From the NCBI RefSeq assembly GCF_036227325.1, contig NZ_CP109467.1, positions 6,634,001 to 6,698,000 of the forward strand: a DNA stretch of 64,000 nt, given 5' to 3'. Made by a program: the position numbers and the translations under genes. The notes beneath the pieces were generated by a model that was given only the letters and a program-made list of their open reading frames with translations, was not told the DNA's origin and did not search any database. Source of the DNA: Streptomyces sp. NBC_01465 (GTDB taxonomy: Bacteria; Actinomycetota; Actinomycetes; Streptomycetales; Streptomycetaceae). Every line of letters begins with the position of its first letter. Positions within the stretch are counted from its first letter, which is position 1. Of this stretch, positions 32,794-57,003 are shown one piece after another.

Positions 32794-32806
32794 CGAAGTG
32801 CCAACC

Positions 32807-32821: not shown

Positions 32822-32857
32822 TTGCCATGGGTTCCCGTCAAGACCCACCATGTCGGC

Positions 32858-35269: not shown

Positions 35270-35270
35270 A

Positions 35271-35358
35271 TAACGAATGACACCGTTGCCATCTCGTTAA
35301 GGATTTACTCCTTGACGCCTACGTGGCGGCCGAGTTGACTCACTCCCACCTCGGCCGC
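35271..35358. promoter_or_regulatory. xylF upstream region with two inverted repeats
   Basis: TAACGA (35271-35276) and TCGTTA (35294-35299), spacer 17, could be an operator for the ROK regulator. Downstream, GCGGCCGAG (35326-35334) and CTCGGCCGC (35350-35358) form a 9-pair hairpin in the probable leader, ending 33 bases before the xylF start. Role of either is unproven. Confidence 0.45.
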
Positions 35359-35391
35359 GACGTTGCGGCCTCGTCAGGGAGGCATCTCCAC

Positions 35392-36459: not shown

Positions 36460-36466
36460 TCACCTC

Positions 36467-36496
36467 GCGCGCCAGGGCCAACAGGCCCTGGCGCGC
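36467..36496. terminator. Hairpin between xylF and xylG
   Basis: Stem GCGCGCCAGGGCC (36467-36479), loop AACA, GGCCCTGGCGCGC (36484-36496): 13 perfect pairs, 7 bases after the xylF stop and on the same strand as xylG. It probably stops part of the transcription or protects xylF mRNA, giving more binding protein than transporter. Confidence 0.72.
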
Positions 36497-36645
36497 ACGG
36501 GTTTGACCCGCCCCGTACGGCGGAGTCGGCCCGCCCCATGACTGTCCGGCCCCGGCCGGCTCACACCCCGCTGTCGGCCGGGTGCCGGACACATTCCCCC
36601 CAGTACTTCCAGTACGTCGACGCTGCCCCTCGTGGCGCGGCGTCT

Positions 36646-36682
36646 CCGCCGGTCAGGCGGCACATCCCCGCCGGTCAGGCGG
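36646..36682. repeat. Tandem 15-base repeats before xylG
   Basis: CCGCCGGTCAGGCGG occurs at 36646-36660 and 36668-36682, 22 bases apart (two helix turns). Each copy is itself an imperfect inverted repeat (CCGCC/GGCGG). Located 17 bases before the xylG start, overlapping the likely promoter/leader. Two sites on one face suggest cooperative protein binding or alternative hairpins. Confidence 0.55.
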
Positions 36683-36699
36683 CGAAGGAGATGGTTCAC

Positions 36700-37475
<776 letters not shown>

Positions 37476-37479
<4 letters not shown>

Positions 37480-41104: not shown

Positions 41105-42622
41105 GTGGCACAACAGACCGACCACACCACCAGCAAGCGGCAGCAGGGGCTGCTGCGGACGAAATCCATCGAGCAGTCGATCCAGGACACGGAGGAGCCC
41201 GAGCACGCGCTGAAGAAGTCGCTCTCGGCGCTCGATCTCACGGTCTTCGGCGTCGGGGTCGTCATCGGCTCGGGGATCTTCGTCGTCACCGGTACGGCGG
41301 CCAAGAACTACGCGGGCCCCGCCGTCACCCTCGCCTTCGTCGTCGCCGCCGTCGTCTGCGCGCTGGCGGCCCTCTGCTACGCCGAGTTCGCCTCGACCGT
41401 CCCCGTCGCCGGGTCCGCGTACACCTTCAGTTACGCCTCCATGGGCGAGTTCCCCGCCTGGATCATCGGCTGGGACCTCGTCCTGGAGCTCGCGCTGGGC
41501 TGCGCGACCGTCGCCGTCGGCTGGTCCGGCTACGTCCAGTCGCTCCTCGACAGCTGGGGCATCCCGCTGCCCGAGAAGCTCCAAGGGCCGCCCGCCGACG
41601 GGGGGTTCGGCTTCAACATCGCCGCGTTCCTCCTCATCCTCGCGGTCACCGCGGTGATCGTCATCGGTATGAAGCTCTCCGCGATGGTCACCTCCGTCGT
41701 CGTGGCGATCAAGGTCGTCGTCGTCCTGATCGTCATCGCGGTCGGCGCCTTCCTGATCAACGGCTCCAACTACCACCCGTTCATCCCGCCCTCGCAGGAG
41801 ACCAAGGGCGGCGACGGCCTCAGCTCGACCCTCCTCGAAGCGATCTTCGGCTTCACCCCGACCAGCTTCGGCTTCATGGGGATCTTCACCGCCGCGGCCG
41901 TCGTCTTCTTCGCGTACATCGGCTTCGACGTCGTCGCCACCGCCGCCGAGGAGACGCGCAACCCGCAGAAGGACATCCCGCGCGGCATCCTCGGCTCGCT
42001 GCTGATCTGCACGATTCTGTACGTCGCCGTCGCGATCGTGGTGACCGGCATGCAGAAGTACACCGAACTCGACTCCGAGGCCCCGCTCTCCGAGGCCTTC
42101 AAGTCCGTCGGGCACCCCTTCTGGGCCGGGCTCATCAACTTCGGCGCGATCATCGGCCTGGTCACCGTCTGCATGATCCTGCTGATGGGCCAGAGCCGCG
42201 TCTTCTTCGCGATGAGCCGCGACGGACTGCTGCCGCCGCTCTTCAGCCACGTCCACCCCAAGTTCCGTACGCCCTACCGCTCGACGATCATCCTGGGCCT
42301 CATCTCCGCGCTGGTGGCCGGTTTCGTCTCGCTCGACGAGCTCTCCAAGCTCGTCAACATCGGCACGCTCTTCGCCTTCGTCGTCGTGGCCCTCGGCGTG
42401 ATCATCCTGCGCCGCACCCGCCCCGACCTGCCGCGCAACTTCAAGGCCCCCTGGGTGCCCGTACTCCCGGTGCTCTCCGTGGCCTGCTCGGTCTGGCTGA
42501 TGCTGAACCTGTCGGTCGAGACGTGGCTGCGCTTCGGGATCTGGATGGTGATCGGGATCGTCATCTACTTCGCCTACGGCCGCAAGCACAGCCGCCTCAA
42601 CCCGGCCCGCAACTCCCGGTAA
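41105..42622 (+). CDS. Amino-acid permease (APC superfamily)
   Basis: 505 residues with about twelve membrane segments. Family motifs: DLTVFGVGVVIGSGIFVVTG at the first helix, GFDVVATAAEETRNPQKDIPRGI near the middle, and SRVFFAMSRDGLLPP. Cationic amino-acid transporter-like group; probably imports amino acids by proton symport. AGGGAGG precedes GTG 41105. Single gene. Confidence 0.93.
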   Translation: MAQQTDHTTSKRQQGLLRTKSIEQSIQDTEEPEHALKKSLSALDLTVFGVGVVIGSGIFVVTGTAAKNYAGPAVTLAFVVAAVVCALAALCYAEFASTVPVAGSAYTFSYASMGEFPAWIIGWDLVLELALGCATVAVGWSGYVQSLLDSWGIPLPEKLQGPPADGGFGFNIAAFLLILAVTAVIVIGMKLSAMVTSVVVAIKVVVVLIVIAVGAFLINGSNYHPFIPPSQETKGGDGLSSTLLEAIFGFTPTSFGFMGIFTAAAVVFFAYIGFDVVATAAEETRNPQKDIPRGILGSLLICTILYVAVAIVVTGMQKYTELDSEAPLSEAFKSVGHPFWAGLINFGAIIGLVTVCMILLMGQSRVFFAMSRDGLLPPLFSHVHPKFRTPYRSTIILGLISALVAGFVSLDELSKLVNIGTLFAFVVVALGVIILRRTRPDLPRNFKAPWVPVLPVLSVACSVWLMLNLSVETWLRFGIWMVIGIVIYFAYGRKHSRLNPARNSR

Positions 42623-42694: not shown

Positions 42695-44167
42695 ATGCTT
42701 GTCGAGCCGCCGCCTTCGCTACGGTACGTATCCGCCCCCCGGCTGCCGCGACGGGCACCCGCGCCGCCCTTCTGGCCCCGCGTCCTCCTTCTCCTCGCCG
42801 CACTGGCCACCGTCACCCGCATCCCCTCCTTCCGGCTCCCCCTCTGGAACCCGGACGAGGGGTATCTCGCCGTCCAGGCGCGGATACTGCTCGACGGCGG
42901 CACGCTCTACGGCACCGTCGTCGACCGCAAACCACCGCTGCTGCCCTGGCTGTACGAAGCCGCCTTCGCGCTCTGCGGCGACGGATCGCTGCACCCGCTG
43001 AAGGTCCTCGCCGTCCTCGCCCAGCTCACCACCGCGGCCCTACTCGCCGCGATCGCCCGCCGCCGCTGGGGCGACCGCGCCGGCCGCACCGCAGGTGTCC
43101 TCTATCTCCTGGCCTCCATCGGCCTCAACCCCGAGGACACCCAGGCGGCCACCTTCGAGGTCTTCATGCTGCCCTTCACCGCGGCCGCGCTCTGGTGCGC
43201 GGACCGCCGCAGATGGGCCGGGGCGGGCCTGGCGGTGGCGGCCGCGTTCCTCACGAAGCAGACCGGCGGCGCGGTGCTGATCCCGGTCCTGTGGCTGCTC
43301 TGGCACACCGCTCCGACCCGAAAGGCCCTGCTGCGTACGGCAGTCGGCCTCACGCTTCCGGTGCTCACCGCGGCACTCCTGACCACGCCCACCGGCTTCG
43401 TCTTCTGGACGGTGACCGGATCGGGGGCGTACGCCTCCTTCACGGGATCCGAACTCCACGTGCTGGTACGCGCGATGACCAACACCGCGATCCTCGCCTT
43501 CGCCTGCGCCGGACTGATCCCACCGGTCCTGCGCGTCCTGCGCATCGCCCGCACCGGCGCCGCCGACCTCTGGCTCTGGCTCGGCTCCTCGGCCGCCGCG
43601 GTCGTCATCGGCTTCCACTTCTTCGGCCACTACTATCTCCAACTCATCCCGCCCCTGGCCCTGTTGGGGACGGCCGCGCTGCAGATCCTGCCGCGCGACT
43701 GGCTGCACACCACCGTCCTCACCTCGGCCTGCACCTGCGCGCTGTTCCTCGCCTGGGGCCTGCTCGCCCCGCGCCCGGAACTCGCCCACGTCCAGCGTCT
43801 GGCCGAAGCCGTGCAGGAGCGCACCGTTCCCACGGACCGTGTCCTCGTCTGGGGGATACACCCGGAGACGTACCTCTTCGCCGACCGCGCCCCCGCCAGC
43901 CGCTTCCTCACCGCAGGGCTTCTCACCAACTACAGCGGCGGCCGCGACGGCCCGCAGGTCGGCGAGAAGTACGCCGTCGAGGGGGCCTGGACGACCTTCC
44001 GCCAGGAGATGGCCGAGCGGCCTCCGGCCCTGATCGTCGACGACTCGCGCGGCAAGCCCTTCGCCCCCGACCGCGTCCCCACCCTGCGCCGGCTGCTCGA
44101 CGGCCGCTACACGGAACGGGCCACCGTCGACGGGGCGGTCCTCTACGTACGCTCCCCGGGCGGCTGA
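42695..44167 (+). CDS. Membrane glycosyltransferase, GT39/ArnT-like
   Basis: 490 residues, about ten hydrophobic segments. The first extracytoplasmic loop has LWNPDEGYLAVQARILLDGG, where the Asp-Glu pair is the catalytic site of PMT/ArnT-type GT-C enzymes, and the second loop has VVDRKPPLLPWLYE. Such proteins move a sugar from a polyprenyl carrier to a protein or polymer outside the membrane. ATG 42695 has no ribosome site but TAGTTT ends 6 bases before, so the message may be leaderless. Overlaps the convergent NYN gene by 25 bases. Neighbour of the envelope cluster. Confidence 0.85.
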   Translation: MLVEPPPSLRYVSAPRLPRRAPAPPFWPRVLLLLAALATVTRIPSFRLPLWNPDEGYLAVQARILLDGGTLYGTVVDRKPPLLPWLYEAAFALCGDGSLHPLKVLAVLAQLTTAALLAAIARRRWGDRAGRTAGVLYLLASIGLNPEDTQAATFEVFMLPFTAAALWCADRRRWAGAGLAVAAAFLTKQTGGAVLIPVLWLLWHTAPTRKALLRTAVGLTLPVLTAALLTTPTGFVFWTVTGSGAYASFTGSELHVLVRAMTNTAILAFACAGLIPPVLRVLRIARTGAADLWLWLGSSAAAVVIGFHFFGHYYLQLIPPLALLGTAALQILPRDWLHTTVLTSACTCALFLAWGLLAPRPELAHVQRLAEAVQERTVPTDRVLVWGIHPETYLFADRAPASRFLTAGLLTNYSGGRDGPQVGEKYAVEGAWTTFRQEMAERPPALIVDDSRGKPFAPDRVPTLRRLLDGRYTERATVDGAVLYVRSPGG

Positions 44168-44508
44168 CGCACGGTCCGCGGCCCGGCGCAGCGCGCCCCG
44201 TACGCCTCCACGCGGCGCCGCAGCTCCCGGTCGGCGGTGACCACGGTGCACTCCGCCCCGGCGGCAGCGGCCTCGGCGGCCAGCTCCACGATCCGGTCGT
44301 CGCCGCTGCCGGGCGCCGACTCCACCCGTACGCCCTCGACGGACTCCACCCCGCGGGCCGCACCCTCGACGACCAGCACGATCTCGGCGCCGTCCCCGTA
44401 CCCGACGAGCCCGTCCCGCAGCCGTACGGCGGCCCCGCGCCGGTCCCGCCACCAGCCGTCGGGCACGGAACCCACGACATTTGCCGCGTCCACGATCAAC
44501 AGGGACAC
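44143..44508 (-). CDS. NYN/PIN-like domain protein (predicted RNase)
   Basis: 121 residues. The PIN/NYN nuclease plan is visible: LLIVDAANVVGS with the first Asp and Asn, a middle acidic SGDDRIVELAAEA, and CTVVTADRELRRRVEAYGA with the last Asp. Such proteins cut RNA using metal ions. GTG 44508 places the start just before the first strand; longer forms are unlikely since upstream sequence is not protein-like. No toxin-antitoxin partner is beside it, so it is probably not a toxin pair. Confidence 0.82.
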   Translation of the reverse strand: MSLLIVDAANVVGSVPDGWWRDRRGAAVRLRDGLVGYGDGAEIVLVVEGAARGVESVEGVRVESAPGSGDDRIVELAAEAAAAGAECTVVTADRELRRRVEAYGARCAGPRTVRQPPGERT

Positions 44509-44587: not shown

Positions 44588-45634
44588 ATGTCGCCGCACA
44601 TCGCTCTAGCGCCGAGCACCAGCCGCTGGCTTTTCCGCGGCAAGGACGGCAGGCTCACCGCCTATGCCCTCGCCGACGGCGGAATTCTCCGCTGGACGGA
44701 GAGCGTGCCGGGCGGACCCGAGTGGACCGGCCCCGATTTCCTCGCCACGCCCGACCTCCTGCACGTCTCCTTCGGCCAGGGCCCCGACGGCTACGTCCAT
44801 CTGCTCGCCCGCCGCAGACGGGCGCAGGGCGGCGACGACCTGATGCACGCCGTCCAGTACCAGAGCGGCCGCCCGATCGGCCCCTGGCAGTCACTGGGCA
44901 ACCCCCACACCAAGGACATGAACAAGGCCCGTGCCGTCGGCGTCCCGGGGGTCGCGGTCAGCGCCGACGGCTATGTGCACCTCTTCCTGAACAACGGCAA
45001 CGGCGCGGTCAACCTGCGGCGCCAGACCAAGGCCGTGAAGTGGCAGGGATGGCAGGACCTCAAGGGTGCGAACTTCCGCGAGGGCATGGCTGCGGCCGTC
45101 GCCGTGGGCGGTCTCGTCGAGGCACTCGCCCCCGCCGACAAGGAACTGCTCCGCCGCGAACAGGACGCCCCCGGCGGGGACTTCACGGAGGCGGAACCGG
45201 TCGCGGCCACCCCGTACCCGGGATCGATCGAGGGTCTGCAGACCGCCGAGAGCCGTGCCACGTACTACTGGAGCGACCGCGAGAACCCCGGCATCGTCGC
45301 CCACCGCCCCGGCTCCGACCCGATCCCCCTCGGCGGCGACCCCGACAGCGGTCCCCCCGCGGTCCTGCGCACCCCGATAGAAGGCCACGACTGCACGGTC
45401 CTGGCCTACCGGAGCCGCAGCGGCCGCCCCGCCATCGCCGCCTGCCCGACCGAGGGCGAGGCGGACGGCCTGTGGTGGACCCCGACCGGCGAGCCCTCCC
45501 TCGGCGCCCCCGCCCTGGCGCTGGACGCCGAGGACCGGGTGGTCATGGCGGCCATCGCCGAGGACGGCACCCTGCGGATCGCCCGCCAGAAGGCCGAACC
45601 GGGGCTGGCGCTCGCGGCCTGGGCAAAGGTGTAG
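44588..45634 (+). CDS. Repeat protein of probable beta-propeller type, paralogue A
   Basis: 348 residues without signal peptide. Repeats of about 45-50 residues are visible (GYVHLLARRRR...WQSLGNP, GYVHLFLNNGNGAVNLRRQ, WQGWQDLKGANF; first and second share the GYVHL strand), as in PLL-like lectins and sialidase-like propellers. Start ATG 44588; GGGAAGG lies 13 bases upstream. About a third of positions recur in the gene at 47168-48322, including the opening WLFxGxDGRLTAY. It is followed by a 61-residue small gene and the LCP gene. Function unknown; binding of a glycan is inferred. Confidence 0.82.
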   Translation: MSPHIALAPSTSRWLFRGKDGRLTAYALADGGILRWTESVPGGPEWTGPDFLATPDLLHVSFGQGPDGYVHLLARRRRAQGGDDLMHAVQYQSGRPIGPWQSLGNPHTKDMNKARAVGVPGVAVSADGYVHLFLNNGNGAVNLRRQTKAVKWQGWQDLKGANFREGMAAAVAVGGLVEALAPADKELLRREQDAPGGDFTEAEPVAATPYPGSIEGLQTAESRATYYWSDRENPGIVAHRPGSDPIPLGGDPDSGPPAVLRTPIEGHDCTVLAYRSRSGRPAIAACPTEGEADGLWWTPTGEPSLGAPALALDAEDRVVMAAIAEDGTLRIARQKAEPGLALAAWAKV

Positions 45635-45746
45635 GGAGCAAGTAGGGCGACGGGACCTTGGTCCTTCGCGCCGGTGACGTACGCCCCCTGCTCCTCGCCG
45701 TACGGCCCGGTCACGCTGGAGGGGACATCGGCGAGGGAGCAGAGCA

Positions 45747-45932
45747 ATGGCGTACATCCAGGAAGCAGCAACGGCGGACACGGCGGCCGGCAGCGAGGCG
45801 AAGGCCGCAGAGGTGCTCGCGGCGGCCGCCGAACACGACCGCACGGCGATCGCGAACTCGGGCCCGTCGGGCCTGCCCTGGCTCGCGCCCACGACGTCCC
45901 TGACGGTCGTCCTGGGCGCGAGCGCCCGCTGA
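45747..45932 (+). CDS. Small protein of 61 residues, unknown
   Basis: Sequence starts MAYIQEAATADTAAG and ends LTVVLGASAR. The first half is Ala/Glu-rich and likely helical; the second has SGPSGLPWLAPTTS and a short hydrophobic strand. AGGGAG sits 7-12 bases before ATG 45747 and third codon positions are overwhelmingly G or C, so it is a real gene. No known family, no membrane helix and no signal peptide. Its stop touches the stop of the convergent LCP gene. Could be a peptide precursor or a partner of the neighbouring repeat proteins; unproven. Confidence 0.75.
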   Translation: MAYIQEAATADTAAGSEAKAAEVLAAAAEHDRTAIANSGPSGLPWLAPTTSLTVVLGASAR

Positions 45933-47042
45933 TCAGCCCCCGGTCGCGGGGGACTTCTTCGCCGACGCGGGAATCGTCGAGTCGGTGCGGATCGCCTTCC
46001 AGAGGGTCTTCGCCTGCGGTTCGGCCGCGATCACCCGGTTCGGGTCGATCTTGTCGTACGCCACCGGGAGCATGATCGTCTCCATGGTGGCGGGATCGAC
46101 GCCGTTCAGGCTCCGCGCGAAGTCGGCCAGCGAGGTCAGCGAGGCGAGCTCGGAGTCGGTGGTCAGCGACTTGGTGAGCGAGTTGGCGATCTTGTACGAC
46201 TTGGTCGGACTGCCCAGCAGATCCTGCGACTTGACCTCGCTCAGCAGGGCCAGCATGAACTGCTGCTGCAGCCCGATGCGCCCGAGGTCACTGCCGTCGC
46301 CGATCCCGTGCCGGGTGCGGACGAAGGCCAGCGACTCGGTGCCGTTCAGCTTGTGCGTACCGGCCGTGAGGTCGAGCCCCGAGGATGTGTCGTGGATCGC
46401 CTGCTCGGTGGTCACATCGACCCCGCCGATCGCGTCGACGAGCCCCTTGAACCCGGCGAAGTTGATCTCCATGTAGTGGTCGATGCGCACCCCGGACATC
46501 TTCTCGACGGTCTTGACCACGCAGGCCGGACCGGCAAGGGAGTAGACGGAGTTGAACATCACGCGCTGCGCCGAGGAGAGCGTCGAGCCGTCCTTCTTGG
46601 TGCACTCGGGCCTGGTCACCAGGGTGTCGCGCGGAATGCTCACGGCGACGGCCTTCTTCCGGCCCTCCGGTATGTGCACGACCATCGCGGTGTCGGAGCG
46701 GGCCCCGCTGACGTTGCCGCCCGCGAGCCCCTTGTTCTCACCCGACCGCGAGTCCGAGCCCAGGACCAGCACGTTCTGTCCGCTGGTGGGGAGCTTCTCG
46801 GGGCGGTCGGTGCCGAGCGCCTTGTTGATGTCGACGCCCTTGATGTTGCCGTTGAGGTGGCTGTAGAGCCACCAGACGGTGCCGCCTCCGGCGAGCAGCA
46901 GGACGACCAGGCTGATGAGCACGATCCGCAGGCCGCGCCTCTTCTTGCCCTTGCCTCCCTTGCCCCCCTTGCGCCGGGAGCCCTTGGCGGGGGCGGCGCG
47001 GTGGCCGCTGTGGGGACTGTCTGCGTCGGTCTGGTACGTCAC
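45933..47042 (-). CDS. LCP-family (LytR-CpsA-Psr) polymer ligase
   Basis: 369 residues. Basic cytoplasmic start (Lys/Arg-rich, 1-40), one membrane helix (about 42-62, VLISLVVLLLAGGGTVWWLY), and an outer LCP domain with NVLVLGSDSRSGE, SDTAMVVHIP and SIPRDTLV, whose Arg/Asp residues bind the polyprenyl phosphate head. LCP enzymes attach teichoic-acid-like polymers to peptidoglycan. GTG start at 47042. It lies amid envelope-polymer genes and is the natural ligase for them. Confidence 0.93.
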   Translation of the reverse strand: MTYQTDADSPHSGHRAAPAKGSRRKGGKGGKGKKRRGLRIVLISLVVLLLAGGGTVWWLYSHLNGNIKGVDINKALGTDRPEKLPTSGQNVLVLGSDSRSGENKGLAGGNVSGARSDTAMVVHIPEGRKKAVAVSIPRDTLVTRPECTKKDGSTLSSAQRVMFNSVYSLAGPACVVKTVEKMSGVRIDHYMEINFAGFKGLVDAIGGVDVTTEQAIHDTSSGLDLTAGTHKLNGTESLAFVRTRHGIGDGSDLGRIGLQQQFMLALLSEVKSQDLLGSPTKSYKIANSLTKSLTTDSELASLTSLADFARSLNGVDPATMETIMLPVAYDKIDPNRVIAAEPQAKTLWKAIRTDSTIPASAKKSPATGG

Positions 47043-47167
47043 TGCTCGTGGCGCCCTTTCATGTGGATGGTGAGGCTGAGGGGGTTCGGTGAACGTTGCA
47101 TGGACCGTGTGACAAACTGCGGATCCTTGTGCATGTGTTCGAACCTGTGGAAAGGCGGGGCAGGGGC

Positions 47168-48322
47168 GTGATCGGTGGCAGCGGTGACGGCGGCAGCGCG
47201 TCCGGCAACTGGCTCTTCACTGGGCAGGACGGCCGGCTCACTGCCTATCTGCCGGCAGAACACGGACTGCTGCGCCTGACCGAGCCGGCCTCGGGTCACC
47301 TTCCCTGGACCGGCCCCGACCTGGTCGAGGTTCCGGGCTGGACCGGCCGGGTCGCCATGGCGCAGAGCCCCGAGGGCTACGTGTATCTCGCTGTTCTGCG
47401 CCGTCCGCGGACCGCCGACGGCGCCCTGGAGGTTGCCTTCGCCACGCAGTTCCAGACCGGGCGCGGGCTGACCGACTGGCGCAGCCTGGGTGCTCCGGCG
47501 TCGCCCGGCGTGCCGGGGGACAGCGTGGTCGCAGGTCCCCTGATCGAGGTGAACAAGGCGATCGGCACGGTCCACGTCGTGGTCTCCCTGCGGGCCGGCG
47601 GAATCGTGCGGCGCAGTCGCAACGCGGACGGTGTCTGGGGCGGCTGGAAGTCCGTCACGGCCGAGGCGTACCCCCATGCGTTCGCCACCGTCATGACGAC
47701 CGGAGGACCGCTGGAGATCCTGGCCACGGGCCCGGCCGGCACCGACCGCTGGGTGGGTGTCGCACAGGGCCGGTTCGAACTCAGGGAACGCCTGGGGACG
47801 CCGCTCGTCGACGGCACCCAGATCGCGTACGAGACCGGTCCCAAGCGGGCGACGTACTACTGGCGCTATCCGGGCGACGGCTCGCTCGTCGCCTGGCGTG
47901 CCCAGGGACAGCAGGCGCAGGGCGGCGGCCTGATTCCGCTCGGCGGTGCGGGGGGCCGGGGCAGGCCCGACGTCACCCGCGCGCTCGTCGGAGGCGTCGA
48001 CTGCACCGTGCTGGCGCAGACGGGGGCGCACGGCGGTATCGAAGTGACCGCCCACGGTACGGAGAACGAGGCGTACGGAGCCTGGTGGGCGACCCTGGAC
48101 GGCGAGGGCGCGCACACCCCGAAGCTGGCCGTCGACGGAGCGGGGCGTCTGGTGGTCACCGCCCTCGGCAGCGACGGCGAACTGCTGCTGGCGCGCCAGG
48201 ACATCGGCCGGGAGGGCCTTGCCTTCGGCCCGTGGGGCCGGCTGGGCCGACCGGATCACCGGGCACCAGGCAGCGGACGTCGCTCGGCGACCTCGATGGA
48301 GAGGTCGCCCTCCGGCGTGTAG
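47168..48322 (+). CDS. Repeat protein of probable beta-propeller type, paralogue B
   Basis: 384 residues, paralogue of the gene at 44588-45634: same opening (NWLFTGQDGRLTAYLPAEHG), the conserved SPEGYVYLAVL, and ATYYWRYPGDGSLVAWR matching ATYYWSDRENPGIVAHR in paralogue A. GTG 47168 places the homology 13 residues from the start, as in A. No signal peptide. Its last 67 bases overlap the end of the convergent GT2 gene, giving a different, basic tail (HRAPGSGRRSATSM). Divergent from LCP. Confidence 0.8.
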   Translation: MIGGSGDGGSASGNWLFTGQDGRLTAYLPAEHGLLRLTEPASGHLPWTGPDLVEVPGWTGRVAMAQSPEGYVYLAVLRRPRTADGALEVAFATQFQTGRGLTDWRSLGAPASPGVPGDSVVAGPLIEVNKAIGTVHVVVSLRAGGIVRRSRNADGVWGGWKSVTAEAYPHAFATVMTTGGPLEILATGPAGTDRWVGVAQGRFELRERLGTPLVDGTQIAYETGPKRATYYWRYPGDGSLVAWRAQGQQAQGGGLIPLGGAGGRGRPDVTRALVGGVDCTVLAQTGAHGGIEVTAHGTENEAYGAWWATLDGEGAHTPKLAVDGAGRLVVTALGSDGELLLARQDIGREGLAFGPWGRLGRPDHRAPGSGRRSATSMERSPSGV

Positions 48323-49857
48323 AAGGGTGCGGCGACGAGTTCGTGCTGCTCCGAGCGGGGCGACGGGGCGATCACCACGGGGGGACGCGCGGTGGTGTCC
48401 ACATCGGCCGAGCGCCGGCGGCCGAGCCGCACCTCGCGGGTCACGCCCTCGAAGCTCACGGCCAGGGAGATGTCCCAGATCCCCGGGGCCACGGGCCAGC
48501 CGCTCGAGGTCTGTCCCAGACCGACCCGTGCCGAGAAGCGGGCCATGGCGCGTGGCTTCCCCTTGGAGTTCAGCAGGGTCTCGTCCCTGCGTGCGGTCAC
48601 GGAGAAGCGTTCTTCCGCCCCGCTCTCACGGTGACGCAGCACCACCTTGGTGGCACGGTCCCGGGTGGAGAGCTGCTCGAAGAAGGCGAAGCCGTCCAGG
48701 GTCAGCATGGGGCCGGTCCACTGCAGACGCGTGAGTTCGTGCGTCACGGTCATCCGGTCCGTGATGTCGAACAGGTCGTCGTCCAGGGGGACTTGCGGAT
48801 CCCGGAAGTACGGAAGCGTGGTGAACACCCGGCCGTCCTCGACGGTCTTGCGCGGCGCGGGTGGCTTCTCCGCCTCGTAGACGGCCATCTGCTCGGCCTC
48901 GGGGAACCGGCCTGCCGACAGCAGGGCGAGCCGAACGGCCAGCGGCCTGGGCAGCCGGGCGAGCGCACCGGGAGTGAGGTGGGTGCGCAGTACGCTCTGG
49001 GCGCTCCACATGGCCTGCTGCCGCTCGGCCTGATGGTCCGAAGCGAGCAGCAACGCACCGGTGGCACGGCCGAGTTCGGACTCCAGGTGACGCGAGAGCA
49101 GCAGATCGAGCCGGGGGCCGGCCGGCACCAGCGTGGTCACCAGGGCCATCATCCGGGCAGCCAGGGCCACCCGTTCGGGCAGCGGCACCGACGGCGCGGA
49201 CGAGGGTCCCTTGATGATGCAGGTCCGGTCCGCGACCACCGCGATGTTGTCCGCGGCCACATAGGCGGCCGCGGTGAAGGCCTGGTCGTCGCCGATGAGG
49301 ACATCGGTGGGGAACTGCAGTCCGCGTCGCTCCAGCATGCTGGTGCGGAAGAGCTTGTCCGGGGTGAGCGACCAGTAGACCCGCGAGGCGTAGAGGTCGG
49401 CGTACTCGCGTCCGGTACGGAACATCGAGGTAGCCACCGCGTGGCGCCCGGAGCTCTCCGGCTTGCCGAGCACGACGTCCGCCTCGGTCTTGTCCGCGAC
49501 GGCGACCATACGGGCGAGGGCGTCCGGTGCCAGCCGGTCCGCGCCCTCGAGGAAGATGACGAACCGTCCCCTCGCCTGGCTCAGACCGAGGTTGCGGGCG
49601 GCGGCCGGGCTCAGCCCACGCTGCTGGCGGCCGATGCGCAGGACGCCGCCGCTGCGGTCGGCGGCACGGGCCAGCAGGGGGCCGCTGTCGTCGGTCGAAC
49701 CGTCGTCGACCGCGATGATTTCCAGCCGGAGCTTGCCGGTCGTCTGCTCGAGCAGCGAATCGACACAGGCGAGCACCGTCTCCGCATGGTCGCAGACACG
49801 CAGGACGACGGTGACGTCAAGGAGGTCACCGGGGTGGAAGGGGCCGCGATTCACCAT
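48256..49857 (-). CDS. GT2-family glycosyltransferase
   Basis: 533 residues. N-terminal GT-A domain about 10-210 with VTVVLRVCDHAETVLACVDSLL, the nucleotide-sugar DDG motif in IIAVDDGSTDDSG and LIGDDQAF acceptor-side motif. A helical middle and a beta-rich C-terminal part (about 390-533) without known family follow. Similar long GT2 proteins accompany TagF-like genes in teichoic-acid clusters. ATG 49857 overlaps the upstream stop by 7 bases, so strongly coupled. Last gene of the four-gene run. Confidence 0.88.
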   Translation of the reverse strand: MVNRGPFHPGDLLDVTVVLRVCDHAETVLACVDSLLEQTTGKLRLEIIAVDDGSTDDSGPLLARAADRSGGVLRIGRQQRGLSPAAARNLGLSQARGRFVIFLEGADRLAPDALARMVAVADKTEADVVLGKPESSGRHAVATSMFRTGREYADLYASRVYWSLTPDKLFRTSMLERRGLQFPTDVLIGDDQAFTAAAYVAADNIAVVADRTCIIKGPSSAPSVPLPERVALAARMMALVTTLVPAGPRLDLLLSRHLESELGRATGALLLASDHQAERQQAMWSAQSVLRTHLTPGALARLPRPLAVRLALLSAGRFPEAEQMAVYEAEKPPAPRKTVEDGRVFTTLPYFRDPQVPLDDDLFDITDRMTVTHELTRLQWTGPMLTLDGFAFFEQLSTRDRATKVVLRHRESGAEERFSVTARRDETLLNSKGKPRAMARFSARVGLGQTSSGWPVAPGIWDISLAVSFEGVTREVRLGRRRSADVDTTARPPVVIAPSPRSEQHELVAAPFYTPEGDLSIEVAERRPLPGAR

Positions 49858-50675
49858 GACTGCCTCTGCTGCGTCTGCTGGGGCTGTGCGCTCTCCGGGG
49901 AACGGGGCCAGGGCATCTCGCCCGTGAGCCCGGGCCACTGCCACGGGTGGAATTCGACGGCCGAGGTGCACTCGGGAAAGGCGCCGGGTGCCTGCCCGAG
50001 GGGGCCGACGTGCACATTCACCGGTGCGGAGGCGAGCGATCCGTCCACTGCGGTCACCGTGTACGTGAAACGGTCGTACCCCAGGAAGCCGGGCGCGGGC
50101 AGGTAGGCCAGCGCTCCGTCCCCGGTCAACTGTGCTTCTCCGTGCCGGGGTTGAGTCAGTGAGACCGGGGCGCCGCCCCCGGCCGGGATCCGTACCGCGC
50201 CCGGAGTGTCCTGCGCGGTGAGGATCCGCAGCCCCGCGGCCGGCGACGTGCGTACGGGCAGTGCGAGGGCATCGAGCCGCCCGGTACGGATCAGCTTCAT
50301 CCCCGAGCCGTCCGGCACCGCGACCCTGAACTGCGGGCGCAGCCGCGGCGGCCCGGAGGGCTGCTTGACGCGCAGGGACAGGACGCCCGAGCGGCTCTCT
50401 CCTGCCTCGGCGCGCACCCGGAACCAGCGCTGCGCGGGGAAGTACTCCAGCTGCTCGGCGCCGACGATCTCGGCCGCTTCGGTCAGCGCGTCCGCGTGCA
50501 GGTAGGCACAGCCGCGCGGTGCGCCCCGGTCGGGAGCGACGGAGAGCCCGAGCTGGACGAGGTCACCGACGGCGACCTCCTCCAGGGGATCCGCAGAGCT
50601 GTAGAGGGCCGCGTACACCGCACCCTGGGACGGTTCGGTGCCGATGGCACGGCCCTGGCCGAGGAGATGGTTCAT
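49851..50675 (-). CDS. Ig-like / cadherin-like domain protein
   Basis: 274 residues, no signal peptide or membrane helix. The C-terminal third has AYLPAPGFLGYDRFTYTVTA followed by SAPVNVHVG, the mark of Ig-like (Big_9) repeat domains. The N-terminal part is beta-rich with no match. Start ATG 50675 overlaps the SGNH gene stop by 4 bases (ATGA) and its own stop overlaps the GT2 start. Probably an accessory protein for polymer synthesis or display; exact role unknown. Confidence 0.72.
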   Translation of the reverse strand: MNHLLGQGRAIGTEPSQGAVYAALYSSADPLEEVAVGDLVQLGLSVAPDRGAPRGCAYLHADALTEAAEIVGAEQLEYFPAQRWFRVRAEAGESRSGVLSLRVKQPSGPPRLRPQFRVAVPDGSGMKLIRTGRLDALALPVRTSPAAGLRILTAQDTPGAVRIPAGGGAPVSLTQPRHGEAQLTGDGALAYLPAPGFLGYDRFTYTVTAVDGSLASAPVNVHVGPLGQAPGAFPECTSAVEFHPWQWPGLTGEMPWPRSPESAQPQQTQQRQSW

Positions 50676-51481
50676 GCGCCGGCCTTCGGGACGGGGGATG
50701 CGGAGACGCGTGAGCGGGTGCGGTCCTGGAAGGTGGCTTCGTCGAGCCAGCCCAGCTCGTCGTACGAGAAGGAGCGGACGTCGAGCCCCTTGACCCAGTG
50801 GGCGGGGATCACCTGCTGCTCGGCGAGGCTGCGGGCCACGAAGCGCGCGCACTCGACGGCGCCCTCGGCACGGAGGTGCACATTGTCCGCGTCCTGGACG
50901 ATCTCCTGGAGCGGCTCACCGGGGCGGAGATAGGTGAAGGCGTGCCGGGAGTTCTCCGGTCCGAGCTCCTCCCACCAGGCCAGACTCTGCCCGTAGAGAT
51001 CGACGACGGGGAGGTGCTCCTCGCGGGCCAGCTGCCGCATCGCACGGGGATAGTCGGCGAGGAACCGGGACACGTTGCCGTGGCGGTCGAGACGGCGCCG
51101 CTCGTACGGCAGCAGGATCACCGGATGCGCCTGGCGCTCGCGGACCCCCGTGGCGTACGCCCGCATGTGGTCGAGGAAGCTGCCGTACGGGTCGGTGTGC
51201 AGTCCGGGGTCGGGCTTCCAGTCGATCTGGCCGAATCCGTAGACGAGGTAGTCGCCGGGCGCGATGTTCTCCAGGATCCACTGGAGGCGGCCGCGCTCGT
51301 GGAAGCTCTTCGAACTGGCCCGCGCCCTGGCGCAGTTGACGACCTCGACCTCGTCGGTGAGGAAGAGGGGAAGCGCCTGGGCCCAGCCGGCCATCGGGAG
51401 ATGGCTGAACGGGCGGGTGACCGCGGTGGAGTCACCGGCCACGAAGATCCGAGCCGGGCGTCCCGGGTGCTGGGCAGACAT
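50672..51481 (-). CDS. SGNH/GDSL-family hydrolase
   Basis: 269 residues. Block I is IFVAGDSTAV (nucleophile Ser18), block II/III region holds YGFGQIDW, and block V is DADNVHL with Asp and His. Resembles rhamnogalacturonan-acetylesterase-type SGNH enzymes that remove or move acetyl groups on glycans. No signal peptide, so likely cytoplasmic unless exported otherwise. Between TagF-like (52 bases) and the Ig-like gene (4-base overlap), suggesting acetyl editing of the polymer. Confidence 0.87.
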   Translation of the reverse strand: MSAQHPGRPARIFVAGDSTAVTRPFSHLPMAGWAQALPLFLTDEVEVVNCARARASSKSFHERGRLQWILENIAPGDYLVYGFGQIDWKPDPGLHTDPYGSFLDHMRAYATGVRERQAHPVILLPYERRRLDRHGNVSRFLADYPRAMRQLAREEHLPVVDLYGQSLAWWEELGPENSRHAFTYLRPGEPLQEIVQDADNVHLRAEGAVECARFVARSLAEQQVIPAHWVKGLDVRSFSYDELGWLDEATFQDRTRSRVSASPVPKAGA

Positions 51482-51533
51482 GCGTTCCTGCCTCCTGGGG
51501 CTGGTGTCGCTGGACGGGGTGGGGGCGGAGGCG

Positions 51534-53528
51534 CTACGCCATCAGCTCGGGTTCGTCCGGGTACTCGATGGGGAAGTCACGCATTCCGCGCGCGTAGAGG
51601 TCGTTCGCGGCGTTGTTGAACCGCACGCCGGACGGCGGGTAGTCCGCCCCGAGCAGGTACTCCTTGAGCTGCTCGCGGTACGGGGCCATGACGTCCTGCT
51701 CGGGGAAGAGCATCGCGTTCAGGGCCTCGTCGAGTCCCTCGCAGTCGGAGTCGAGGAGGTAGGAGGCGTACGCGGTGCGCTGCTCGTTGCGGAACTCGTC
51801 GTCGGGCAGGCCGTCCAGGTTGAAGATCGCGTACGGCTTGCGGGTCGCCACGAAGTCCGAGACCACACTGGACATGTCGCCGATCAGCAGGTCCGAGTGG
51901 TTGAAGCAGTCGTAGAGGGAGGGCACCCGCTCGATCACCACGTGGTGGGCCTCGTCGGGGATCGCGTTCCAGTACAGCGCACCCGCCCGGTTGCGGCTGC
52001 CGCGCACGCGCGCGGTCCGCTCCTCCTCGGTGAGGTCGGGGTACTTGGACCTGACCCCGCGCTCGGAGACCTCCGCGATCTGCTTGTCGAGGCGGGCCAG
52101 CTTGCGGGCAGCGCTCTTGGAGTCGTGGAGATTGCGCCCGAACCGCTGGGCGTTGCCCTCCTGGAGGAGGGCGATGATGCGCCGGTGCGCGGCCGCGGCC
52201 TCCGGCGACCTGCTTCCGGTGAGCGGGTGGGGCTTGTAGATCACCCGTATCTCGCGCTCGTGCGAGAGGAGCGCCCGGACCAGCTTCTCGCCCGCCGGGA
52301 TGACCGAGGTGTAGCAGGCGTCGTCGGTCCAGCCCTCCCAGGTCGGCGCGTAGATCACGGTGGGGATCCTGTTGCTGACGGAACCGGTCCAGCGGTGCAG
52401 CGGCATCAGCTGCGGTCGTCCGACCTCGACGATCTGGTCGGCGTTGACGGCGTGCTTGATGCGCTCGTACCGGTCGCGCCCGGCCCGGCCGGCCACCCAG
52501 ATCTCGTCGAACACCTTGCTCACGCGGTTGCTGCTGGCCAGCTTGTCGCTGTCGCCGTGCCCGATGAACACATGCTTCACCTCGGCCCGCTGGAGCATGT
52601 GCACGTTCTTGCCCGCGTTGCCCGGGTAGAGGGTGACCCGCAGCTCGGGCATCTCGACGCGGGCCAGGTATTCGGCCTTGGGCACGCAGACGACCGGCAC
52701 CGACGTGGCGTCGAGGAAGCGCAGAGTGGCCCGCTCCCGCAGCACGATGACGGGGCGCAGATCCAGGGACTCCAGCGACTCCAGCCACATGTTCACCTGG
52801 TACATGAAGTCCTTGGAGACCGCGGCGAAGGTGAAGTACAGCGCCACCTGCGGCCGGTAGTCCGCGAGCTGTCGGTTGAGCTCGTCGAGGGCCTCGTCGT
52901 GCGTCGGCAGTACGAGAGCGTTCCGCGCTCCGGGGATCAGGGCGAGGAACGCCAGGAAGGCGACCGAGACGGTGATGATCCCGCCGAAGGCGACGTAGCG
53001 GCCTTCGTCGGTCGCCATGGTGGCCAGCGCGCCGCCCACCAGCGGGATGTCCAGGTGGAGCATCTTGCGGACGTGCTTGCTCATCAGGAACGGATGAGGC
53101 ATGCGCCGGATGTCCAGCGCCTCGACGTCGAGCCCGCGGGTGGTGAAGGGCAGGGCCGCCCGCTGGGAGCGCACCTGCTTCAGCATGCCGCTGTACGCGA
53201 GCTGCAGGACGAAGAGCAGCAGGAAGCCCACGGTGCTGATCTGTACGACGAAGGAGTCGATGTCCACGATGGATCCGCAGAGCGCCAGCAGCAGGAACTG
53301 GCGGATCAGGAACCGGATGGTGAGGCCGAAGCGGGACTCCCGCAGCCGGTCGAGTGTCGAGGACTGCGCGTTGTGCAGCAGCAGGTCGGCGACGTAGCTG
53401 GTGGTCGCGGCGTACACGAACAGAGGGAGGGACGCGATGACGACCGACGTCATCATCGCGACGAAGCTGAGTACGAGAGCGCCGGATATGAGAACACCCA
53501 GCACGGCCTGGCGTCGCTGCTTGCCCAT
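51534..53528 (-). CDS. TagF-like CDP-glycerol:polyglycerophosphate transferase
   Basis: 664 residues. The first about 170 hold several hydrophobic segments (VLISGALVLSFVAMMTSVVI onward), then a TagB/TagF glycerophosphotransferase domain: VKHVFIGHGDSDKLASS with the His used for CDP-glycerol, VIYKPHPLTGSRSPEA, and LLIGDMSSVVSDF. Builds poly(glycerol or ribitol phosphate)-type wall teichoic acid. ATG 53528 (MGKQRRQ) is preceded by AAGGAGG. First gene of the minus-strand run to 48256. Confidence 0.9.
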   Translation of the reverse strand: MGKQRRQAVLGVLISGALVLSFVAMMTSVVIASLPLFVYAATTSYVADLLLHNAQSSTLDRLRESRFGLTIRFLIRQFLLLALCGSIVDIDSFVVQISTVGFLLLFVLQLAYSGMLKQVRSQRAALPFTTRGLDVEALDIRRMPHPFLMSKHVRKMLHLDIPLVGGALATMATDEGRYVAFGGIITVSVAFLAFLALIPGARNALVLPTHDEALDELNRQLADYRPQVALYFTFAAVSKDFMYQVNMWLESLESLDLRPVIVLRERATLRFLDATSVPVVCVPKAEYLARVEMPELRVTLYPGNAGKNVHMLQRAEVKHVFIGHGDSDKLASSNRVSKVFDEIWVAGRAGRDRYERIKHAVNADQIVEVGRPQLMPLHRWTGSVSNRIPTVIYAPTWEGWTDDACYTSVIPAGEKLVRALLSHEREIRVIYKPHPLTGSRSPEAAAAHRRIIALLQEGNAQRFGRNLHDSKSAARKLARLDKQIAEVSERGVRSKYPDLTEEERTARVRGSRNRAGALYWNAIPDEAHHVVIERVPSLYDCFNHSDLLIGDMSSVVSDFVATRKPYAIFNLDGLPDDEFRNEQRTAYASYLLDSDCEGLDEALNAMLFPEQDVMAPYREQLKEYLLGADYPPSGVRFNNAANDLYARGMRDFPIEYPDEPELMA

Positions 53529-53729
53529 GGCCGGTCGGCCCTCCTTGAACGTGGCGTGGTGCGGCTTTGCCACGGTGGGGACGGGCACGGCAGCTGTGTA
53601 GGGATTTTGTGAAATCTCAGACGCATCTTAGGTGCTGATTAGGTCAACGGTGAACAAAATATGGCCAGAAGCGGAACCTTGGATGCCGCTGGTACCGAAT
53701 GGTTATCAACGGTGGATGAGTGGTCGGCC

Positions 53730-54776
53730 TCAGCCGGCGAACCCGTAGACGCTGAGTTCCCGGCGCCCACGGGCCTTCGTCGAGAAACCCATGCACAGCG
53801 CGGGACGCGGAGTGAGCCGGACGGCCAGACCCTCCGGCTCGCGGAAGGGGAGCGTGGGTGCGACGGTGACCCGTCTGCGTCCCGCCGGCTTTCCGGTCCT
53901 CAGCGCGATGGCCGACAGATAGGTGTTCCCGCCGGCGGAGGGCGGGTTGTCGCCGTCTTCGTCCGTGTACGGATTTCCGGTGAGCTGGTAGATGAAGTCC
54001 CCGTGCAGAGCGCATCCCTGGAGCGGCTCCCCCTTGCGCCGTACGGTGTCCAGCACCGTGTGCGACGGCCGGTACCTTCCGGCGAGGAAGTCGTCCATGG
54101 GGTAGACGGCATACCGGTGCTGCCGTCCGGTCCAGTGGCTGACCAGGACCCGCCGTCCGGACAGATCCAGGGCCGGGTGGACGGTGTGACTTCCCGGGAG
54201 CGGGCTGTGGTGGCGTACGGAGGGTGCGGAGCTGTCGAGCACCGTGCGGTCGCGGAACGGAACCCTGGCCACCGAGCGTCCGTAACCGGTCCGCGGGTCG
54301 GCCCGGGACTCGACCCACAACTCGACCTGTGCGCCGGACGGTTCGATGCCCAGGGAAATGCCGTGGCCGAACCCGCGCAGATACATATGGGCGAGCAGCT
54401 CTCCGGACCGCGACAACCTGGAGACGCACATGTCCCCGTGCAGACGCCGCTGCGAGGAACTGCGCGGCCGTGATTCGCCCGCCAGCCGCACGCCGCCGGG
54501 GATGCCCTGAAGTGTGTAGAGATGGCCGCGGGTGTCGTCGAAGGCGAGAGCCTGAGGGCCGCTGACCTCATGGAGCGGTGTGGGGGACAGAAGTCTCGAC
54601 GCCGCGGCGATGTCGAACACCCCGGCCGGGCTGCCGGCCTTCGGCGGGGACTGGTCGGTGATCAGTGCCGTCGCCGCCACACCCCCGGTGACGAGTGCGG
54701 CCGCCGAGCCGCCGCCCGCGAGCAGCAGAGTCCTCCGGCTGACCGGCTTGGCAGGTTTCGCCTCGATGATCGGCAC
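53730..54776 (-). CDS. Tat-exported TagC/P68-like beta-propeller protein
   Basis: 348 residues. Twin-arginine signal (SRRTLLLAGG, residues 13-22, hydrophobic to about 40). The remainder has repeating strands (ALAFDDTRGHLYTLQG, HPALDLSGRRVLVSHW, GCALHGDFIYQLTGNPY) as in TagC/phage receptor-binding-type propellers linked to teichoic acids. GTG 54776 with GGAGGAA upstream. Same strand as TagF and separated by 201 bases. Likely acts on or binds the polymer outside the cell; inferred. Confidence 0.75.
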   Translation of the reverse strand: MPIIEAKPAKPVSRRTLLLAGGGSAAALVTGGVAATALITDQSPPKAGSPAGVFDIAAASRLLSPTPLHEVSGPQALAFDDTRGHLYTLQGIPGGVRLAGESRPRSSSQRRLHGDMCVSRLSRSGELLAHMYLRGFGHGISLGIEPSGAQVELWVESRADPRTGYGRSVARVPFRDRTVLDSSAPSVRHHSPLPGSHTVHPALDLSGRRVLVSHWTGRQHRYAVYPMDDFLAGRYRPSHTVLDTVRRKGEPLQGCALHGDFIYQLTGNPYTDEDGDNPPSAGGNTYLSAIALRTGKPAGRRRVTVAPTLPFREPEGLAVRLTPRPALCMGFSTKARGRRELSVYGFAG

Positions 54777-54861: not shown

Positions 54862-57003
54862 TTACGCCGGAACGCTCGCTACCCCCTGCGCGAGGAACGG
54901 CTTCCCGTTCACCCGCTGCGAGACGCCCTCGCGGTCCAGGTACGGAGTGATTCCGCCCAGGTGGAAGGGCCAGCCCGCGCCGGTGATCAGGCAGAGGTCG
55001 ATGTCCTGGGCCTCGGCCACGACACCCTCGGCCAGCATCAGGCCGATCTCCTGCGCCACCGCGTCCAGGACACGGTCCCGCGTCTGCTCCTCGGTCAGTA
55101 CGGTGTCGCCCTGCTTGAGCAGCGCCGCGACCTCCGGGTCCAGCTCCGGCTTGGCTGGATTCTCGGCGGAGTAGACGTAGAAGCCGCGCTTGCCCGCCTT
55201 GACGACGGCGGCCAGGTTCTCCGAGACCGTGAAGCGGTCGGGGAAGGCGCGGTTCAGGGTCTCCGAGACATGCAGACCGATGGCCGGGCCGACCAGCTCG
55301 AGCAGCACCAGCGGCGACATCGGCAGGCCCAGCGGCTCGACCGCCTTCTCGGCGACCTCCACCGGGGTGCCCTCGTCGATGACGTTCTGGATCTCGCCCA
55401 TGAAGCGGGTGAGGATGCGGTTGACGACGAACGCCGGGGCGTCCTTCACCAGGACCGCCGTCTTCTTCAGCTTCCGCGCGACAGCGAACGCCGTGGCCAG
55501 CGCGGCGTCGTCGGTCTGCTCGCCGCGGACGATCTCAAGCAGCGGGAGGATCGCGACCGGGTTGAAGAAGTGGAAGCCGACGACCCGCTCGGGGTTCTTC
55601 AGCTTCGACGCCATCTCGGTGATCGAGAGGGACGAGGTGTTGGTGGCGAGGATCGCGTGCGCCGGGGCGACCGCCTCGACCTCCGCGAACACCTGCTGCT
55701 TGACGCCGATCTCCTCGAAGACGGCCTCGATGATGAAGTCGGCGTCGGAGAAGCCCTCGGCCTTGTCCAGAACACCGGTGACCAGGGCCTTCAGGCGGTT
55801 GGCCTTGTCCTGGTTGATACGGGACTTCAGCAGCAGCTTGTCGATCTCGCCGTGGACGTAACCGACGCCCTTGTCGACTCGCGCCTGGTCGATGTCCGTG
55901 AGGACGACCGGGACCTCCAGGCGGCGCAGGAAGAGCAGCGCGAGCTGCGAGGCCATCAGGCCCGCGCCCACGACGCCCACCTTCGTCACCGGACGCGCCA
56001 GGTTCTTGTCCGGCGCACCCGCCGGGCGCTTGGCGCGCTTCTGTACGAGGTTGAACGCGTAGATGCCGCTGCGGAGTTCCCCGCCCATGATCAGGTCCGC
56101 GAGGGCCTGGTCCTCGGCGTCGAAGCCGGCCTGCAGGTCACCGCTCTTGGCGGCGGCGATGATGTCCAGCGCGCGGTACGCGGCCGGGGCGGCGCCGTGC
56201 ACCTTGGAGTCGGCGACGAAGCGGCCCTTGGCGACGGCCTGGTCCCAGGCCTCGCCGCGGTCGATCTCGGGGCGCTCGACCTTCACGTCGCCCTTGAGGA
56301 CGTTCGCCGTCCAGATCAGCGACTGCTCCAGGAAGTCCGCGCCCTCGAAGATCGCGTCCGCGATCCCGAGCTCGAAGACCTGCTTGCCCTTGAGCTGACG
56401 GTTCTGGCTGAGCGAGTTCTCGATGATCACCGAGACCGCGCGCTCCGCGCCGATCAGGTTCGGCAGCAGGGCGCAGCCGCCCCAGCCGGGGACCAGACCG
56501 AGGAAGACCTCGGGCAGCGAGAAGGCGGGCAGCGCCTTGGAGACGGTGCGGTAGCTGCAGTGCAGACCGACCTCGACACCGCCGCCCATCGCGGCACCGT
56601 TGTAGTACGCGAAGGTCGGCACGGCCAGGCCCGCGAGGCGCTTGAAGACCTCGTGGCCGCCCTTGCCGATGGCCAGCGCGTCCTCGTGGTTCTTGAGGAG
56701 CTCGACGCCCTTGAGGTCGGCGCCGACGGCGAAGATGAACGGCTTGCCGGTGATACCGACACCGACGATCCCGCCCTCGGCCGCCTCCTTCTCCACCTGG
56801 GTGATGGCGAGGTCCAGGTTCGCGAGCGAGCCCGGGCCGAAGGTGGTCGGCTTGGTGTGGTCGAAGCCGTTGTCCAGCGTGATCAGCGCGAACTTGCCCG
56901 CGCCGTACGGCAGATCGAGGTGGCGTACGTGCGCCGACGTGACGACCTCACCGGGGAACAGCTCGGCCGCGCCCTTCAGAAGCTCAGCGGTGGTGGTGCT
57001 CAC
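54862..57003 (-). CDS. fadB: Fatty-acid oxidation complex alpha subunit (FadB/FadJ-like)
   Basis: 713 residues. Two activities in one chain: enoyl-CoA hydratase (about 1-190, GAAMGGGVEVGLHC region) and 3-hydroxyacyl-CoA dehydrogenase (about 330-713; NAD motif GVVGAGLMASQLALLF, then VFEEIGVKQQVFAEVE and GFHFFNPV). Performs two middle steps of beta-oxidation with the FadA thiolase encoded just upstream. GTG 57003 overlaps the fadA stop by 4 bases (GTGA). Confidence 0.96.
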   Translation of the reverse strand: MSTTTAELLKGAAELFPGEVVTSAHVRHLDLPYGAGKFALITLDNGFDHTKPTTFGPGSLANLDLAITQVEKEAAEGGIVGVGITGKPFIFAVGADLKGVELLKNHEDALAIGKGGHEVFKRLAGLAVPTFAYYNGAAMGGGVEVGLHCSYRTVSKALPAFSLPEVFLGLVPGWGGCALLPNLIGAERAVSVIIENSLSQNRQLKGKQVFELGIADAIFEGADFLEQSLIWTANVLKGDVKVERPEIDRGEAWDQAVAKGRFVADSKVHGAAPAAYRALDIIAAAKSGDLQAGFDAEDQALADLIMGGELRSGIYAFNLVQKRAKRPAGAPDKNLARPVTKVGVVGAGLMASQLALLFLRRLEVPVVLTDIDQARVDKGVGYVHGEIDKLLLKSRINQDKANRLKALVTGVLDKAEGFSDADFIIEAVFEEIGVKQQVFAEVEAVAPAHAILATNTSSLSITEMASKLKNPERVVGFHFFNPVAILPLLEIVRGEQTDDAALATAFAVARKLKKTAVLVKDAPAFVVNRILTRFMGEIQNVIDEGTPVEVAEKAVEPLGLPMSPLVLLELVGPAIGLHVSETLNRAFPDRFTVSENLAAVVKAGKRGFYVYSAENPAKPELDPEVAALLKQGDTVLTEEQTRDRVLDAVAQEIGLMLAEGVVAEAQDIDLCLITGAGWPFHLGGITPYLDREGVSQRVNGKPFLAQGVASVPA

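Follow-up and report, generated by a model that had tools for sequence, protein, structure and literature searches.

Between an NYN/YacP-like gene and fadB on the chromosome of Streptomyces sp. NBC_01465 lies a group of genes that a preliminary description took to be an undescribed envelope-polymer system with paired propeller proteins, and the question it raises is what is made there and whether the propellers belong to it. We analysed a window of 64,000 nucleotides (contig NZ_CP109467.1, 6,634,001 to 6,698,000), whose numbering is used below. Judged by gene content, the interval from the NYN gene (44143) to fadB (54862) holds one allele of a wall-glycopolymer locus that is hypervariable in Streptomyces. 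Our main reading, to which we give a probability of roughly 0.6, is that this allele makes a teichoic-type polymer, that the two propellers, PropA and PropB, are lectins without signal peptides, and that a TarS-like protein encoded beside them is altered.

Table 1. The propeller-bearing island, its neighbours and its flanks (window positions)
Feature	Position	Strand	Evidence and remarks
APC-type transporter	41105..42622	+	constant left flank; gene call; called in 80/97 related loci
PMT_2/GT39-like enzyme	42695-44167	+	upstream neighbour; gene call and domain search
NYN/YacP-like gene	44143..44508	-	left flank, divergent from propA; Pfam NYN_YacP E 0.0068, below cut-off; called in 58/97 loci
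propA, stand-alone propeller	44588..45634	+	PLL-lectin fold; treated as resident copy; 348 residues
61-residue ORF	45747..45932	+	probably not a conserved gene; match in 1/199 genus genomes, its own
LCP-family glycopolymer ligase	45933..47042	-	LytR_cpsA_psr E 3.3e-49; TIGR00350 E 5.1e-58
propB, module-specific PLL-like propeller	47168..48322	+	384 residues; start uncertain; 35% identity to propA
TarS-like GT2 with linker and weak C1 domain	48256..49857	-	TarS 5tz8 E 1.7e-23; TarS_linker E 2.7e-7; TarS_C1 E 0.031
Ig-like protein	49851..50675	-	adjoins SGNH; Big_9 E 2.3e-8
SGNH hydrolase	50672..51481	-	GDST and DNVH motifs, no signal; Lipase_GDSL_2 E 1.6e-7, 32.4 bits vs cut-off 32.9
TagF-like membrane protein (CDP-polyol phosphotransferase family)	51534..53528	-	Glyphos_transf E 4.6e-8; alternative start 53588 possible
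TagC-like exported propeller	53730..54776	-	Phage_RBD_prop E 1.9e-9; N-terminal RR (twin-arginine start)
fadB	54862..57003	-	constant right flank; 88-93% identity in L031-L047; called in 86/97 loci
fadA	57000..58226	-	constant right flank

Gene calls and domain searches recover all the genes that had been listed (TagF-like, SGNH, Ig-like, GT2, LCP, twin-arginine TagC-like, GT39-like and two repeat proteins) and support an envelope-polymer island; the two repeat proteins are indeed paralogous (35% identity over 348 positions, E 8e-52). The TagF/SGNH/Ig/GT2 run had been described as tightly overlapping, which holds for SGNH/Ig (4 bases) and Ig/GT2 (7 bases with ATG 49857, or 4 with GTG 49854) but not for TagF and SGNH, which lie 52 bases apart; the 3' ends of propB and the GT2 gene converge and overlap by 67 bases. 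Fixed stoichiometry, which the overlaps had been thought to imply, does not follow, since among 14 related loci that have the two genes (in 13 genomes, as L042 and L188 come from the same one) the Ig/GT2 overlap is never kept (gaps of 13-52 bases, with starts as set by the gene caller) and the 4-base Ig/SGNH overlap is kept in 10 of 14. The 61-residue ORF (GC3 0.90, GC2 0.65), once proposed as a new part, was rejected because it has no relative but itself among 199 Streptomyces genomes. The GT39-like gene is scattered (12 of 97 loci, seven of them sites with a propeller and neither LCP nor module, and 4 of 20 genomes with no propeller at the site), and is thus a neighbour rather than a part of the system.

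The site was compared across 101 Streptomyces genomes (that of the window and 100 others), of which 87 match propA at E 0.001. Up to 20 kb was fetched around the best propA match in 80 other genomes (those with a match of E 6.9e-44 or better). For the other 20, six with a weak and 14 with no propA match, the region taken was that around fadB. Both flanks are in view at 67 of the 80 propeller loci, and the 13 lacking a flank were not counted; L036 is truncated. A "module" here means at least two genes from a hand-picked list of gene clusters, so defined that some module-less sites hold other genes (e.g. a four-gene cassette in L150), and the family names of module genes come from one or two representatives per cluster. 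Two genomes enter twice with identical propellers (L042/L188 and L045/L116), and the affected counts are one lower by genome. Propeller, LCP and module occur together at 27 of the 67 sites, propeller and LCP only at three, propeller and module without LCP at two, and a propeller with neither LCP nor recognised module at 35.

Sequence comparison of these sites reveals constant flanks around unrelated, interchangeable cores, with seven module classes at 29 of the 67 propeller-bearing sites. Class A, the window type, occupies three of the 29 (one of them the diverged, inverted L109), and class B (TagC-TagF-IspD/SDR-GT4) two. Class C, at seven, has a CDP-alcohol transferase and a GT2-GT2-Glyphos protein, usually with SGNH and Ig and usually with a phosphodiester glycosidase-like protein; class D, at nine, has Stealth proteins, mostly with a GT4. 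Class E (a GT2-Glyphos fusion, an Ig-like/Asp2-like protein and an endonuclease/phosphatase-family enzyme) and class F (UDP-glucose dehydrogenase, GT2, polysaccharide deacetylase and a CBM3 protein) are found at three sites each, and class G (NeuB, polysialyltransferase and DUF6716) at two. By the same hand-picked list no module lies beside fadB in the 20 genomes with weak or no propeller matches, two of which carry LCP without propeller (L216, L217); L228 has a single epimerase-like gene and L230 a 771-residue ORF, and the sites of L231 and L233 are truncated or rearranged. As read from its gene families, the class A to G pattern is that of a type-switching surface-polymer locus. Variable capsule and serotype loci likewise have fixed flanks, interchangeable unrelated biosynthetic cores and a shared ligase; unlike them, the present site often holds its lectin gene without a recognised biosynthetic core. 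We note that a cassette with as many as four genes, encoding a HAMP/sensor protein of ~720 aa, proteins of ~430 aa and 160 aa and an NlpC/P60 protein of ~360 aa (L150:7108-12078), recurs in similar form beside or inside the same site, in either orientation, in L110, L112, L124, L155, L162, L170, L184 and L220.

Over 83 genomes, with kinship ignored, LCP is present at 26 of the 28 sites that have a module and at 5 of the 55 that have none (Fisher p 2e-14); for a propeller the corresponding counts are 28 of 28 and 38 of 55 (p 4e-4). These counts include the window, with propeller-less genomes entered by hand and L231, L233 and L234 left out, and form a biased sample since most sites were found through the propeller. 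A kinship-aware test is underpowered, with seven independent pairs only, of which on average 2.8 agree and none disagree. In a less biased set, all 16 TagF-found loci with the site in view (12 class A, four class B) carry a propeller. The two sites with a module and no LCP, and the two genomes with LCP and no propeller, count against our main reading.

Structure and sequence comparison give PropA the PLL propeller fold, and PropB is predicted to be PLL-like through its identity to PropA. PLL lectins bind fucose or O-methyl sugars through paired Trp sites, and on the strength of this fold glycan binding is our best guess for both propellers. Like the Photorhabdus PLL/PHL proteins, PropA aligns with the propeller fold over nearly its whole length and has no recognised signal peptide; unlike them (17-22% identity) it is encoded next to wall-polymer genes, and its sugar binding is predicted. 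PF26607 is precomputed for many PropA relatives, and our Pfam scan gave no PF26607 match; a literature search for this family found no article. A basic motif like R-S-G-R lies within the first 12 residues of 52 of 120 listed PropA relatives and is absent from the window PropA.

On the propeller tree (116 propellers; a short search with SH-aLRT support only) module labels change 31 times vs 64.5 in shuffles, with none of 200 as low (kinship not removed); the label A on L119 is an artefact, as the module there bears TagF but fadB is out of view. PropB groups with 14 relatives in a single clade, all class A, with SH-aLRT 100, and propB is present in 15 of 16 class A loci (14 of 15 genomes), the exception being the diverged L109; 12 of the 15 propB loci were found through TagF rather than through the propeller. 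Similarly, the propellers of six class B loci at the site (5 genomes) form one clade, outside which falls L132, a B-labelled locus at another site. PropA groups with propellers from L046 and L109 that likewise lie near APC, and it is therefore treated as the resident copy. At the 61 loci elsewhere that hold TagF relatives (L048-L108, some incomplete) no propeller was found by tblastn at 1e-6.

The neighbourhood comparison proposed in the preliminary description was to tell against the system if propeller genes were common away from its polymer genes, and for propA-type genes this is what is seen, with 35 of 67 sites lacking both LCP and module, so that at least PropA works, if at all, without the polymer. 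The pair is thus not supported as a unit of the system; propB by itself is nearly faithful to the class A module. The same 35 sites would suit a different reading, in which the propellers are what remains of PIG-L deacetylases once fused to lectins, or have a function tied to the neighbouring fadBA genes, and have no polymer role. PIG-L-propeller fusions do exist, both secreted and inside islands, and propeller forms of ~440-520 residues lack the PIG-L motif in 7 of 7 cases; such forms (438-518 residues) are called in six of eight class C loci and in L109, and neither window propeller has a PIG-L match. We nevertheless think this reading unlikely, as propB tracks the class A module and the class B propellers form their own clade; a propeller also accompanies a module in five genomes without fadB in view (L119, L132, L176, L181, L183), a biased set found through the propeller. 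We note that the window genome itself encodes two secreted-type PIG-L proteins with C-terminal PLL-like propellers (L189:874-2874 and L190:869-2977); one of these genes and a propeller fragment (L191) adjoin what we take to be an EF-Tu-like gene, and the other presumably adjoins a glutamine-synthetase-like gene.

The preliminary description suggested that the propellers were perhaps cytoplasmic glycan-binding scaffolds. Glycan binding remains the best guess, and in a simple hydropathy scan an N-terminal hydrophobic signal was found in none of 96 stand-alone propellers, but "cytosolic" is not secure, since Photorhabdus PLL2 and PLL3 were found in the extracellular fraction with no recognised signal peptides (PMC12203525). 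It is accordingly conceivable, if rather doubtful, that the lectins leave the cell by some other route and act at the surface, as adhesins or as inter-strain lectins like UmbA, rather than in biosynthesis. Hypervariable glycopolymers of Streptomyces are the ligands of UmbA propellers, and in S. griseus the UmbA gene adjoins the strain's own glycopolymer locus (PMC13274773). The window propellers have neither the trypsin-like domain nor the secretion signal of the UmbA type, the propeller filling all 348 and 384 residues with no room for an extra domain, and three PIG-L-propeller fusions inside islands also lack an N-terminal hydrophobic stretch.

The TarS-like protein resembles S. aureus TarS in having a GT2 domain, a TarS linker and a weak C1 domain. 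Unlike TarS, its DXD region reads F-L-E-G-A-D, in which the equivalents of D91 and D93 are E and A and D94 is kept, so that the TarS metal site (D91, D93) is missing. Alignment shows the D93 position to be A, T, V or C in all 16 class A proteins (15 genomes, the window included), with D94 kept throughout; 13 of these proteins also keep the base Asp (D178 equivalent). By our reading of the alignments, Asp stands at both D91 and D93 in 27 of 30 other TarS-like stretches (L048-L108, L247), the exceptions being two in L086 and one in L098. In S. aureus TarS the metal is bound by D93, and activity is lost in each of the mutants D91A, D93A and D94A (PMC5156392). The transferase is thus the doubtful member of the set of polymerase, transferase, editing hydrolase and ligase that had been called recognisable, and the loss of the D93-equivalent Asp means that glycosylation of the teichoic acid should not be taken over as given. 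An active glycosyltransferase, metal-independent or differently metallated, in an island making normally glycosylated teichoic acid is a possibility that we take seriously while leaning against it: the protein is 62-72% identical over its length in 12 relatives and retains the TarS linker, the D94 equivalent and mostly the base Asp, but residues on which TarS activity depends are replaced, and three of the 16 have lost the base Asp as well. The frames are full-length and conserved, which argues against simple decay, and the class A protein is probably an altered TarS, as its alignment suggests. If so, resemblance alone would mis-assign polymer decoration in clusters with such a conserved, metal-site-less TarS relative.

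The TagF-like protein passes the PF04464 cut-off (32.8 bits vs 22.1, in a weak match to part of the profile) and keeps the GHG and SSV motifs; it is 78-86% identical to four relatives at the site and 39% identical to a paralogue at 2.55 Mb, and four strong PF04464 proteins are encoded at 5.27-5.29 Mb. The ligase has a LytR_cpsA_psr domain and an N-terminal membrane segment, as expected of LCP enzymes, and is one of 12 LCP matches in the genome. An IspD-SDR gene is called in 12 of the 15 other class A loci, and for that of L031, which was taken for comparison, the best matches among solved structures are ribitol-5-phosphate cytidylyltransferases. The window has no IspD-SDR gene at the site; a 74% homologue lies at 2.55 Mb beside the second TagF-like gene, among what we take to be rml-type genes, obg and an L21-like gene. 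Indirectly, these TarIJ-like enzymes point to a probable ribitol-phosphate backbone. The SGNH motifs GDST and DNVH recur in loose form in 20/26 and 17/26 called SGNH relatives, and the Ig-like gene adjoins SGNH in 21 of 21 loci. Neither is called in L046, the nearest relative by propB and TarS, and SGNH-Ig-TarS occurs in L086 without a propeller, two observations that tell against our main reading. A model of the Ig-like protein (pLDDT 69, beta-rich, residues 227-274 under 50) gave only generic Ig-like hits among the 50 Foldseek matches listed. The long class D protein also combines SGNH with an Ig-like domain, and the idea that the window Ig-like protein is its split-off C-terminus gained no support from profile comparison. 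The TagC-like protein (53730-54776) is akin to the tail-fibre propeller of S. aureus phage P68 (E 3.6e-7) and also matches a minor tail protein PHROG (E 1.7e-7); TagC is called in 22 of 24 TagF loci.

In our main reading, then, the membrane TagF-like enzyme would polymerise a polyol-phosphate. This is probably ribitol-phosphate, for which the IspD-SDR (TarIJ-type) enzyme at 2.55 Mb would provide CDP-ribitol in trans. SGNH together with the Ig-like protein may edit acyl groups in the cytosol, and a putative transporter encoded elsewhere would export the chain for joining to peptidoglycan by the LCP ligase. TagC would be an exported accessory propeller. The resident PropA and the module-specific PropB may bind a sugar of the chain or its precursor, and the TarS-like protein, having lost its DXD metal Asp, may bind or modify the chain in a way unlike TarS. 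The polymer chemistry, the cytosolic location and all of these binding and catalytic roles are what we infer from the genes. Going further, we tentatively suggest, as an idea we consider improbable in its full form, that at this second hypervariable Streptomyces wall-polymer locus the modules travel with cognate PLL-type lectins derived from PIG-L fusions via degenerate intermediates, and that the lectins and the metal-less TarS-like protein form an intracellular, non-catalytic glycan-reading layer that checks or shapes the polymer before export.

To call the system undescribed is only partly right. Paralogous TagF-, TarIJ- and TarS-like genes are published at another Streptomyces locus, the TUA-WTA locus (utrA-J with SGR_4956, a TarIJ, and SGR_4957, a TagF), which adjoins the ribosomal L21/L27 genes (PMC13274773) and whose arrangement is matched at 2.55 Mb in the window genome. 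Like the window, that locus has hypervariable wall-glycopolymer genes, TagF-, TarIJ- and TarS-like (UtrC) proteins and, in S. griseus, a lectin gene nearby (PMC13274773); unlike it, the window site lies elsewhere on the chromosome, its TagF is 39% identical to the copy at 2.55 Mb, its TarS-like protein lacks the DXD metal Asp, and its lectin is of the PLL type without a trypsin-like domain. LCP ligation is described in Streptomyces, where another LCP gene cluster has been called a hot spot for wall genes (PMC11481543). The available part of PMC13274773 has no mention of the fadB-linked site or of a stand-alone propeller, and no publication on a fadB-linked lectin/wall-polymer locus was among the matches listed from the open-access literature. 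The second variable wall-polymer locus with lectins is thus real and partly known in kind; the polymer enzymes are of known kinds, and what is new, and can be tested, is the partnership with lectins and a TarS-like protein that lacks the metal Asp. In other Gram-positive bacteria, wall glycopolymers decide which phages can bind. In Streptomyces they decide which antibacterial lectin-toxins bind the cell (PMC13274773). If borne out, another variable locus that carries lectins of its own would add surface diversity of a predictable kind and would supply ready-made lectin-ligand pairs for testing.

Two other features of the window may be mentioned. A protein of 508 residues (5164-6687, minus strand) consists of a helix-turn-helix domain followed by a fused EPSP-synthase-type domain (E 4e-43), and a GH92 multi-domain protein lies beside two sugar-type ABC transporter sets and ROK and RpiR/SIS regulators (23216-37479), in a stretch that is partly of lower GC.
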